Shown in pieces: positions 5,207 to 13,756 of a stretch of 46,195 bases of DNA (positions are counted from its first letter, which is position 1; each line of letters begins with the position of its first letter). The notes beneath the pieces are model-generated. The model searched no databases and had not been told where the DNA came from. It saw only the letters and a program-made list of their open reading frames with translations. This stretch comes from Bdellovibrio sp. (GTDB lineage: Bacteria > Bdellovibrionota > Bacteriovoracia > Bacteriovoracales > Bacteriovoracaceae), in assembly GCA_022729855.1 (NCBI GenBank), contig DZBG01000009.1, forward strand, positions 1 to 46,195. The letters run 5' to 3'. Position numbers and translations under genes: made by a program.

Positions 5207-5250
5207 AAAAAGATAAAAAAAAGGCAGGATTTAATCCTGCCTTTTTTTTT
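5206..5250. terminator. Bidirectional terminator between OMP gene and hemE
   Basis: Stem GGCAGGAT (5223-5230), loop TTA, ATCCTGCC (5234-5241), followed by nine T (5242-5250) and preceded by an A-rich run (5206-5222). The two flanking runs make it work for both the plus-strand OMP gene and the minus-strand heme operon, which converge here. Confidence 0.9.
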
Positions 5251-6278: not shown

Positions 6279-6980
6279 CTACTGTCCTTTGAGTTCTAAT
6301 TTATAACCAATACTTCTGATTGATTGAATCTTGATTGATTCAGAATCATCGGAGTCAGTCCATTTTCTTAATTTAACAATATAATTATCAACAGTTCTAT
6401 TTGTGGGAAAACTATCCTCTCCCCAAATAAGTTCAATCATCTCATCACGAGAGACCACTTCATTTTTTCTCTCGAGTAGTAATTCGAGAATGGCACATTC
6501 TTTTTGACCTAAAGAGATGGTCTTATTATCACCATCAGCTAATTCAAAACGTTTAGGCCAAAATTTCAATTTACCAAAACTATGCTCATCCGGGTTTTGA
6601 AAAGTAAGCTGTCTGTTTTTGAGAATCCTCTCAAGACGAAGAGTAAGCTCACGCAGATCAAAAGGCTTTGTAATATAATCTTCGGCCCCAAGTTCCAAGG
6701 CCTCAACTTTAAGAAGTGGATCATTCATGGCCGAACAAAAAAGAATGGCACACTCTTTAAATTCTTGGCGCAAATATTTCGCCAGATCAATGCCAGATCC
6801 ATCGGGAAGGCCAATATCTAAAATCGCCACTGTGGGTTTGATCTCTTGAGCAAGATTTTTGCCTTCAAGCACACTGGTTCCAAGTGAAACATTAAATTTT
6901 TTGGTTTTAAGGTAATCACGGAGAGTTTTACCTAGGTTGGGTTCATCTTCAACGAGTAGGACAGAATAGGGATTATTCAT
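6279..6980 (-). CDS. OmpR-family response regulator in heme operon
   Basis: Two-domain DNA-binding regulator, 233 residues. Receiver domain (1-122): acidic pair E11/D12, phospho-acceptor D55 in AILDIGLPDGSG, S83, and K105 in DYITKPFDLRE. The C-terminal winged helix (about 135-230) contains LGQKECAILELLLERKNEVVSRDEMIELIW (in part) and the closing IRSIGYKLE strand. I prefer the ATG at 6980, since AAGGAG lies just upstream; the in-frame ATG at 6995 would absorb it. The start overlaps the kinase stop by 8 bp, implying coupled translation. Its neighbours are heme genes, so it may control them or respond to heme or redox state; that is inference. Confidence 0.93.
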   Translation of the reverse strand: MNNPYSVLLVEDEPNLGKTLRDYLKTKKFNVSLGTSVLEGKNLAQEIKPTVAILDIGLPDGSGIDLAKYLRQEFKECAILFCSAMNDPLLKVEALELGAEDYITKPFDLRELTLRLERILKNRQLTFQNPDEHSFGKLKFWPKRFELADGDNKTISLGQKECAILELLLERKNEVVSRDEMIELIWGEDSFPTNRTVDNYIVKLRKWTDSDDSESIKIQSIRSIGYKLELKGQ

Positions 6981-7890
6981 GATTTTCTCCTTCAATGAGA
7001 GGAAGAAGAATCACAAATTTTAACCTGTCTTTATTGCTAACAGAGAATTCTCCGCGCATTTTTTTTGTCAGCTGTTTAATAAGATAAAGTCCGATACCAG
7101 AACCTTTAATTGAATTAAACTTATAAAATAAATCACCAAGCTTAGTGATGTCGCCCTTAAACTTTTTACCAAAGTCATCATAGGTGAGTTTGGCCCAATG
7201 ACCTTCTTGTCTGATAGTAATTTCTACTTTAGGTGATTCAGGATTATGTCTCAGCGTATTCTCAAAAAGATTTCTCAAAATCACACTGAGGGCCATCTCG
7301 TCGGCCATGACTTCTTTAATCTCGGCCTTGATTTCAATATTGAGGTGATTGGGAATTTTTTGTTGCTGTCTTTTAATCAAGCGCTCAAGTTGAATGGGAG
7401 ATAGATTAAGTGTGCCGTCTTGCTCGATTCGGGCCAATTGCAGACTCTTCTCAAGCTCACTTTCAAATTTATAGGTATCTTCAATTAGACGAGTGGTTAA
7501 GTTTGTGAGTTGATCGTGATCATGAGTTTCGTCACCAATTAAATCTTTAATGACTTCAGCTTGAAGGCGCATGCTTGCAAGCGGAGTTTTAAGTTCATGA
7601 GATAATGAAGCAAAAAAGGCACCAATGGCCTTAGTCTTTTTCATATCTCTAAAATAAAGAATAAAAAGAGAGAACCCAAGAAGAACTAAGAATATAAAGA
7701 AGAATGTTCCTTCCCATTTGAGCATATTTAAAAAGCGACTCTCACTGGCGAGATCTGGAAGATTAAGTTTTTTCACCACACCATGAAGTTTAAAAACAAG
7801 AAATAGCCACCAGCTTCCGAGACTCAGAAGAGACACAACCCAAAGGGCGGTTAGAATATAGAACCAGCGAAGCGTGCGGTTTAATTCCAT
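6973..7890 (-). CDS. Membrane sensor histidine kinase in heme operon
   Basis: Inner-membrane kinase of 305 residues with two membrane helices (about 10-34 and 60-80) separated by only about 25 residues, so there is almost no periplasmic sensor domain. The H-box FFASLSHELKTPLASMR carries the phosphorylated H98. The N-box ILRNLFENTLRHN and G2-box GSGIGLYLIKQL are clear. The G1 box reads DDFGKKFKGD instead of the usual DxGxG, losing the second glycine. The start overlaps the end of hemL by 10 bp and the 3' end overlaps the regulator gene by 8 bp, so it is firmly within the heme operon. The signal sensed is unknown; an intramembrane cue would suit the architecture. Confidence 0.92.
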   Translation of the reverse strand: MELNRTLRWFYILTALWVVSLLSLGSWWLFLVFKLHGVVKKLNLPDLASESRFLNMLKWEGTFFFIFLVLLGFSLFILYFRDMKKTKAIGAFFASLSHELKTPLASMRLQAEVIKDLIGDETHDHDQLTNLTTRLIEDTYKFESELEKSLQLARIEQDGTLNLSPIQLERLIKRQQQKIPNHLNIEIKAEIKEVMADEMALSVILRNLFENTLRHNPESPKVEITIRQEGHWAKLTYDDFGKKFKGDITKLGDLFYKFNSIKGSGIGLYLIKQLTKKMRGEFSVSNKDRLKFVILLPLIEGENHE

Positions 7891-11635: not shown

Positions 11636-11811
11636 ATAAATTCATCCTAACAACGAGGATGCAGAAAATTGTCACAACAATGTCATAAACCACAGATATT
11701 AAAGAAAAATATACAGTAGATTTTGTTTGGCCCAGTTGGGTTTTTCTTGACTAAATCTTAACAGAAGCATTAATTCAAGTTTGTTATTCTTCCACCAATT
11801 TGAGGGACGCT
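11636..11811. promoter_or_regulatory. Divergent promoter region, hemA / membrane-protein gene
   Basis: This 176-bp intergenic region must carry the heme-operon promoter (minus) and the promoter for the small membrane protein and Na/Pi transporter (plus). On the plus strand TTGACT (11747-11752) and TTAATT (11770-11775) have a 17-bp spacer, but the -10 is weak. Near hemA, TGACA occurs twice as a direct repeat separated by about six bases (read on the minus strand, around 11669-11686), a possible regulator site. I could not fix the minus-strand promoter. Confidence 0.35.
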
Positions 11812-12069
11812 ATGTCATTAATGGCCAAGGTCAAGGAACCTTTTATTCGGTTTGATCGCCGTGTAGACGGTGCCATTACTTTTTTTGTGAAACACTATGG
11901 AAAAACGAAATTCATGGTGGCGATGTCAAAAAAAGCGCAATACTTCGGTCTTGAAGGACTGTTTCTCAAGGGGCCCAAGGCCTTTGTTTACTTTTTTATG
12001 TTTTACTTAATAAGAGACACAATTCTTTATATTGTGATCCCAATCTGGTTTGCAACCTGGATTGACTGA
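11812..12069 (+). CDS. Small membrane protein preceding Na/Pi transporter
   Basis: An 85-residue protein with one clear hydrophobic segment near the C-terminus (about residues 51-79, KAFVYFFMFYLIRDTILYIV and on) and a basic N-terminal half, likely facing the cytoplasm. I take the ATG at 11812, with GAGGG at 11802-11806 as ribosome binding site; an upstream TTG at 11800 is less likely. The transporter ATG lies 7 bp after its stop, so they share a transcript and it may be an accessory subunit. Family not recognised. Confidence 0.7.
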   Translation: MSLMAKVKEPFIRFDRRVDGAITFFVKHYGKTKFMVAMSKKAQYFGLEGLFLKGPKAFVYFFMFYLIRDTILYIVIPIWFATWID

Positions 12070-12076
12070 GGAGTTT

Positions 12077-13756
12077 ATGGAAGCATTTAACATTATCTAC
12101 ACTCTTTTGGGTGGACTAGGGATGTTCTTTTTCGGGATGAAGTTCATGTCAGATGGTCTTCAGGCCATCGCAGGGGACGCGATCCGAAAAATCATCAACT
12201 CATTAACTTCAAACCGCTTCATGGCCGTTGGAGTTGGTCTTGTTGTCACGTGTTTGATTCAGTCTTCATCAGTGACAACAGTAATGACTGTTGGATTTGT
12301 GAATGCAGGACTCATGAGTCTGACTCAGGCCATCGGAGTCATTTTCGGTGCCAATATCGGGACGACAATTACCGGTTGGATTATCTCAATTAAAGTTGAT
12401 AAATACGGCCTTCTTCTGGTTGGTCTGGGATTTATTCCAGGTCTTTTTTCTAAATCAGAAAAATGGCAACATGTTGGGAAATCAGTATTAGGAGTGGGGC
12501 TTGTTTTCATTGGTCTTCAAACCATGTCAGCTGCCTTTGTTCCTCTTCGCGAAAACCAAGCCTTTCTTGATTCAATTGCCTATTTCTCAGGTGAGCATTA
12601 CGGTGCTTATCTTGCTTCAATTATGATGGGATGTTTACTGACGATGATTGTTCAGTCGTCTTCAGCAATGCTCGGGATTACAATGGCCCTTGCCACATCA
12701 GGAGTGATTCCTTACCACACAGCGATCACATTAGTTCTAGGTGAAAACATAGGAACAACAATCACTGCACTTCTTGCTTCAGTAGGCGGGAATGTGAATG
12801 CAAAAAGAGCTGCGCGGGCCCATGCTTGCTTCAATATTTTTGGTGTATCTGTGATGTTAACTATTCTGCCGTATTATTTTGGGCTAGTGGATTCACTTAT
12901 CCCACTTGATCCAAGATTTGCTGCACCAGATGGCTCGTTTCCTTACGTAGCTCAACATATTGCTTTGGCCCACTCACTTTTTAATATCTCGGCCACAATT
13001 TTATTTATTCCATTCATTAATCAGCTTGCCTCATTTGTGACTAAGATCACACCAGATAGAGAAGGAGTGAAAGAAACTCCACATCTTCTTATGCTTGGTG
13101 ATCCAAGTAATATGCTTCCAGCTGTTTCAATTGCTCAAGCTGAATCAGAGCTTAAAAAGATGAATGATATTGTTGAGAGAATGCTTAAAGTATCAAAAGA
13201 TTTCTGGCTTGATGAACATGAACCAGATCCTAAAAAACACGCAAAAATTTTAGATTACGAGCGCATCACAGATAATATTCACAAAGAGATCACAGTCTTT
13301 CTTTGTTATGTGATGGAAAAGCCTATGAGCCGTCAGCAGTCTGAGCAAGTTCAAGCAATGATTAAAATCTCTGACGAACTTGAGAGTGTGGCTGATTATA
13401 TTGAACGCCTTGCTAATTACCGTGACCGTTTTAAAAATGCTGAATCACTTAATGGCGAAAGTAGAGCTGAGTTCTTTGGCTTTATGGATGAAGTGACTGC
13501 ATTTTACGCGCTTGTGGCGAATGGGCTAGATGATTCTAGACAACTTAATATGGAAGTTATTCGTGCCAAAGATCAAGAGATTCAATTGGTGGCCGACAGT
13601 ATTAGAGAAAAGCATATTGATAGAATTTCTAAAGGGGTTTACCAGCCAGTAACTGCCTTAACTTATTCGGATATGGTTGTTGCCTTGCGAAAGATTAGGG
13701 CCCATTCATATTTGATGGCCGGCGCCGTCGAAAAATTTCATACAAGTTTTGATTAA
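12077..13756 (+). CDS. Na/Pi cotransporter family protein with PhoU domain
   Basis: Predicted sodium-dependent phosphate transporter of the inner membrane, 559 residues. Two inverted Na/Pi repeats are visible, each with a QSSS motif (CLIQSSSVTTVMTV and MIVQSSSAMLGITM) and a GxNIGTTIT motif (GANIGTTITGW and GENIGTTITAL), in a membrane part of about 340 residues. The C-terminal 200 residues are a helical, cytoplasmic PhoU-like domain with acidic helices (ISDELESVADYIERLANY). The start is the ATG at 12077 with TGAGGAG at 12066-12072; an upstream TTG opens the frame earlier but lacks a binding site. Direction and substrate of transport follow from the family only. Confidence 0.92.
   Translation: MEAFNIIYTLLGGLGMFFFGMKFMSDGLQAIAGDAIRKIINSLTSNRFMAVGVGLVVTCLIQSSSVTTVMTVGFVNAGLMSLTQAIGVIFGANIGTTITGWIISIKVDKYGLLLVGLGFIPGLFSKSEKWQHVGKSVLGVGLVFIGLQTMSAAFVPLRENQAFLDSIAYFSGEHYGAYLASIMMGCLLTMIVQSSSAMLGITMALATSGVIPYHTAITLVLGENIGTTITALLASVGGNVNAKRAARAHACFNIFGVSVMLTILPYYFGLVDSLIPLDPRFAAPDGSFPYVAQHIALAHSLFNISATILFIPFINQLASFVTKITPDREGVKETPHLLMLGDPSNMLPAVSIAQAESELKKMNDIVERMLKVSKDFWLDEHEPDPKKHAKILDYERITDNIHKEITVFLCYVMEKPMSRQQSEQVQAMIKISDELESVADYIERLANYRDRFKNAESLNGESRAEFFGFMDEVTAFYALVANGLDDSRQLNMEVIRAKDQEIQLVADSIREKHIDRISKGVYQPVTALTYSDMVVALRKIRAHSYLMAGAVEKFHTSFD

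Follow-up and report, generated by a model that had tools for sequence, protein, structure and literature searches.

HemKR (Hklep/Rrlep) is an experimentally studied two-component system of heme metabolism (PMC2266917) and, as far as the literature found shows, it has been studied in Leptospira only. L. biflexa hemKR mutants require hemin or 5-aminolevulinate, and hemA, hemE and hemL expression drops 2-10 fold in them (PMC2266917). Phosphorylated HemR (HemR~P) of Leptospira binds the sequence TGACA-N6-TGACA, HemR represses hmuO in L. biflexa, and HemK is converted to a phosphatase by 5-aminolevulinate (PMC11426443). Louvel et al. 2008 stated, with data not shown, that Bdellovibrio bacteriovorus too has the pair linked to heme genes (PMC2266917), as in the locus described here. 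In the literature found there is no later paper on the B. bacteriovorus pair, and neither a hem-box nor a regulon is reported for it. The heme-responsive systems of the HssRS and ChrSA type share with HemKR the two-component control of heme homeostasis; under heme stress they switch on the export or breakdown of heme, and not a biosynthetic operon.

A kinase-regulator pair within a heme operon

We analyzed a stretch of 46,195 nucleotides from a Bdellovibrio sp. genome (henceforth the window). ORF calls and Pfam matches confirmed that a histidine kinase and an OmpR-type regulator lie between hemL and hemE, and the gene order hemA-hemCD-hemL-kinase-regulator-hemE forms one tight operon on the minus strand (Table 1). 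The gaps separating hemA, hemCD and hemL measure 2-6 bp. Overlaps of 8-10 bp had been claimed for the pair and its neighbors: those between hemL and the kinase gene (10 bp, 7881-7890) and between the kinase and regulator genes (8 bp, 6973-6980) stood, but the regulator gene and hemE are separated by a 1-bp gap. The simplest reading of this layout is a single transcription unit with its promoter 5' of hemA.

Table 1. Features of the heme operon in the window.
Feature	Position	Strand	Remarks
hemA	11635-10703	-	310 aa, short glutamyl-tRNA reductase; ORF call, Pfam GlutR_N
hemC with C-terminal extension, probably a hemCD fusion	10696-9149	-	ORF call, Pfam Porphobil_deam; Leptospira counterpart annotated as bifunctional porphobilinogen deaminase/uroporphyrinogen synthase
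hemL, glutamate-1-semialdehyde aminomutase	9146-7881	-	ORF call, Pfam Aminotran_3
HemK-type histidine kinase	7890-6973	-	305 aa; Pfam HisKA + HATPase_c
HemR-type OmpR/PhoB response regulator	6980 (ATG)-6279 (stop)	-	233 aa; Pfam Response_reg + Trans_reg_C
hemE, uroporphyrinogen decarboxylase	6277-5252	-	ORF call, Pfam URO-D
Strong intrinsic terminator	5215-5249	-	16-pair stem + T tail; closes operon 3' of hemE
hem-box TGACA-TTGTTG-TGACA (hemA orientation)	11670-11685	-	50 bp before hemA start
Remainder of hemA promoter to start codon	11636-11669	-	candidate -10 TAGGAT (inferred)

The operon of L. interrogans reads hemA (annotated hypothetical)-hemCD-hemB-hemL-kinase-regulator-hemE-hemN-hemG. 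The window operon shares with it the hemCD fusion, the short HemA and the position of the pair between hemL and hemE, but is without hemB and hemN. Pfam matches in the window HemA cover the N-terminal and NADPH domains only, with no match for the dimerization domain. The L. interrogans gene at this position is likewise short (289 aa), whereas the hemA open frames of family f3 run to ~408 aa.

Kinase, regulator and hem genes are kept together in nearly all genomes of the family (Bacteriovoracaceae, named from public records) that have the pathway. The same order recurs in other families of the phylum, in some cases with inserted genes: f3 (G046, G053 and G038, whose contig ends before hemE), f6 (G041), f8 (G043), f11 (G049 and G055) and f12 (G050 and G057). 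The arrangement was thus found in most Bacteriovoracaceae and in several other families; a lack of conservation, which would have spoken against the original prediction, did not occur, and this conservation argues that the arrangement is not due to chance.

Orthology to HemKR and the candidate sensing site

In a search of 72,556 plasmid-collection records, the kinase matched best to a protein encoded on a 350-kb replicon of L. interrogans (1e-31); the best other organism among the matches listed reached 1e-13. The matches are reciprocal, since the reverse search of the Bdellovibrio genome returned the window pair first, well ahead of the next match (4e-41 versus 7e-14 for HemK, 4e-42 versus 4e-33 for HemR). 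Both Leptospira proteins fall within the hem-linked HemK and HemR sequences in trees (branch values 96/93 and 100/99), beside those of the Bdellovibrionota genomes G007, G041, G049 and G055, a hint that the heme module was transferred between phyla; the placement of the f3 pairs is unsure, with long branches. Judged by sequence, the window pair is a HemKR ortholog and a further example of a known system, although it belongs to another phylum and the proteins share 34-37% identity.

The likeness extends to the residues on which a two-component system relies. The catalytic-residue test found the phospho-acceptor His (H98) and the phosphatase Thr (T102, at H+4 as in Leptospira HemK) in the kinase and the phospho-acceptor Asp (D55) in the receiver domain, whose best solved-structure match is 4q7e, which we take to be L. 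biflexa HemR. The regulator, of the OmpR/PhoB type in both organisms, carries the recognition-helix signature FPTNRTVDNYIVKLR, and this helix is near identical between the window and Leptospira regulators (SFPTNRT(V/I)DN-x-IV-(K/R)-LR). N199 within it is shared by Leptospira HemR and each of the 28 hem-linked regulators examined, but by none of four paralogs.

The kinase had been claimed to possess two membrane helices with hardly any periplasmic loop. Indeed, it has two hydrophobic segments, at about residues 10-35 and 61-80, joined by a loop of roughly 20-25 residues, and is thus a short-loop HisKA kinase like its Leptospira counterpart; a Pfam search found no HAMP domain. An AlphaFold model of low confidence (pLDDT 68) was used solely for the helix limits. 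Across 51 aligned kinases the helices are conserved and the loop is variable: H98 never varies, nor do the W27-W28 pair of helix 1 and E60 where helix 2 starts, and T102 is Thr in 50 and Asn in one. The f3 pairs, though unsure in their tree placement, retain the promoter box described below, and their kinases have a WW pair and, close to where helix 2 starts, a Glu. A WW pair was not found in the paralogs checked in the Bdellovibrio genome.

In L. biflexa HemK the short loop is dispensable, and an allele with F31-S62 replaced, according to the printed primers, supported growth (PMC2266917). The replaced segment includes the Glu equivalent to E60, and the kinase-on state would thus not depend on E60. 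It is a tentative and rather doubtful joint proposal that a site built from W27-W28 and E60 lets HemK detect 5-aminolevulinate or a porphyrin directly in the membrane, as a conserved tetrapyrrole sensor common to two phyla, and that heme operon and sensor were transferred as one module between Bdellovibrionota and Leptospira. A redox cue, also suggested for this kinase, found no support; the off-signal in L. biflexa is 5-aminolevulinate or a derived porphyrin metabolite.

A HemR-type box at the hemA promoter

The window contains one TGACA-N6-TGACA (0.10 expected by chance), a direct repeat with an 11-bp period, and this exact copy of the published HemR box falls within 11636-11811, where regulator binding had been proposed. 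In close relatives with a readable promoter the box sits at -48 to -50 from hemA with a varying spacer, and at -53 in L. interrogans. Many deeper family members have lost the strict box and carry CTACA/TTACA-N6-TGACA at a similar place, a variant defined only after inspecting them. Counting one hemA per genome (two for G019), an exact or variant box lies 5' of hemA at 37 of 37 Bdellovibrionota loci with linked HemKR, and at none of 12 hemA loci without the pair; 16 of the boxes are exact and the others have at most two changes in the left half. Shuffled sequences gave an exact box in 0.1% and a relaxed box in 6% of cases. Co-occurrence of box and pair has a Fisher P of 1e-11, uncorrected for phylogeny, a value that overstates the association because the relaxed rule was set post hoc and the species are not independent. 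The G017 operon (hemA-hemCD-hemL-hemE) is missing both pair and box, and losses within the family (G017, G019 and G025) point the same way, as do the other families.

When 18 close loci are aligned on the hemA ATG, positions -12 to -7 resemble a -10 element (A in 16/18 at -11, T in 17/18 at -7), with the pattern TA(A/T)NNT. Such an element would place the box over the -35 region and suggest a leaderless or nearly leaderless hemA mRNA. The box position is compatible with either sign of regulation. HemR might repress the operon, with the box-bound regulator blocking polymerase and heme or porphyrin excess stimulating the kinase, much as the same regulator represses hmuO in L. biflexa (PMC11426443); we consider this variant unlikely, since in Leptospira a box placed in this way accompanies hemA activation, as judged by the fall of hemA, hemE and hemL in the mutants (PMC2266917). 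The trend is reversed in the L. biflexa mutant when iron is scarce, and the sign may thus depend on condition.

A wider regulon was not evident: the hem-box pattern is not clearly enriched genome-wide beyond the hemA site. Strict boxes in 18 genomes number 63, 18 of them at hemA, against a summed 35 for a reversed-pattern control; the recurrent sites inspected lie inside a conserved gene adjoining a thiamine-pyrophosphokinase-like ORF, and most others are intragenic too. In the Bdellovibrio genome itself, relaxed sites number 19 versus 15 in the control, most inside genes. Three further strict sites there were treated as chance: two are intragenic, one in a desaturase gene and the other in a large ORF, and the third precedes a two-component system at C134. 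The last (C134:3261-3276) is intergenic, 34 bp before a second kinase-regulator pair, and may be chance; the regulator of that pair is the next-closest to HemR in this genome. No box was found at hemB or hemH, and heme oxygenase (PF01126) was not detected in this genome. The hmuO arm of the Leptospira regulon would thus be absent here. Whereas L. biflexa has boxes also at hmuO and exbBD, we found one promoter-placed conserved box, and the circuit seems to consist of one autoregulated operon, a simpler layout than in L. biflexa.

These data also bear on whether the pair is co-transcribed with the heme genes for co-expression only, and senses and regulates something else, such as envelope stress. 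Kinase and regulator indeed fit just generic NCBIfam models, all below cut-off (equivalog matches were not reached, with 132 versus 296 bits for PhoB and 75 versus 334 bits for PhoR). The dedicated promoter site that co-occurs with the pair, the lack of another recurring genomic site and the orthology to HemKR all speak against such a role, which we hold to be very improbable.

The E. coli Pho-box pattern TGTCA-N6-TGTCA is the reverse complement of TGACA-N6-TGACA, so that the hem-box reads as a Pho box in opposite orientation, and in most of the family, as in the window (12050-13756, +), a Na/Pi cotransporter-PhoU gene is transcribed divergently from hemA. That the box is a PhoB site for this gene, with the kinase-regulator pair merely riding in the operon, was rejected by a survey of the genes neighboring hemA and merits hardly any credence: the box is kept where the neighbor is not Na/Pi (G023, families f3, f6, f8, f11 and f12, and Leptospira), is missing along with HemKR from G017 despite a Na/Pi-like neighbor, lies much closer to hemA (~50 bp) than to the Na/Pi gene (~365 bp), and has the sequence that Leptospira HemR was shown to bind (PMC11426443). 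The box thus tracks hemA and HemKR. The window pair resembles PhoR-PhoB in its kinase and regulator superfamilies and in the 11-bp-period direct-repeat site, but differs in the recognition-helix residue N199, in gene context and in a box that does not track phosphate genes.

Other features were noted around the operon and elsewhere in the genome. An 89-aa ORF (11800-12069, +; TTG start listed) with the conserved motif FDRKVDGAxSFFxKHYGKTKFM precedes the Na/Pi cotransporter in most family members. In G007 (L096) and G041 (L097), hemA and a HemB-like gene diverge from either side of the hem-box, and one box could therefore serve both. An 805-aa ORF at C39 (L147:49-2466, -) has ferrochelatase as its N-terminal part and a C-terminal half that looks major-facilitator-like, a possible HemH-transporter fusion.

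A probable HemKR feedback circuit on heme synthesis

We propose that the pair very probably forms a HemKR feedback circuit on the C5 heme pathway; the phosphotransfer, the sign of regulation and the signal are carried over from L. biflexa. HemK would use its membrane helices, and not a periplasmic domain, for sensing and would phosphorylate HemR at D55 when the pathway is under-supplied. HemR~P would dimerize on the TGACA-N6-TGACA repeat, which overlaps the hemA promoter at the -35 region, and would activate hemA-hemCD-hemL-hemK-hemR-hemE, its own genes included. As 5-aminolevulinate or a later porphyrin accumulates, HemK would become a phosphatase through T102, dephosphorylate HemR and shut the operon down. 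The original prediction of a self-contained tetrapyrrole control circuit is in this respect very probably right, supported by the match to the known Leptospira system (PMC2266917, PMC11426443).

The kind of system is already known from Leptospira, as is the heme linkage in Bdellovibrio (PMC2266917, data not shown). New here are the phylum-wide footprint of HemKR, the co-loss of box and kinase, the invariant W27-W28/E60 signature and the lack of a detected heme oxygenase in this genome. Orthologs across the phylum with matching promoter boxes put the published HemR site to an independent test by evolution, and make Bdellovibrionota a second group in which the HemKR circuit can be studied. W27-W28/E60 is a specific candidate sensing site that bears on how HemK detects 5-aminolevulinate. 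Our findings also suggest that HemKR exerts feedback control on the heme supply of predatory bacteria and related organisms.
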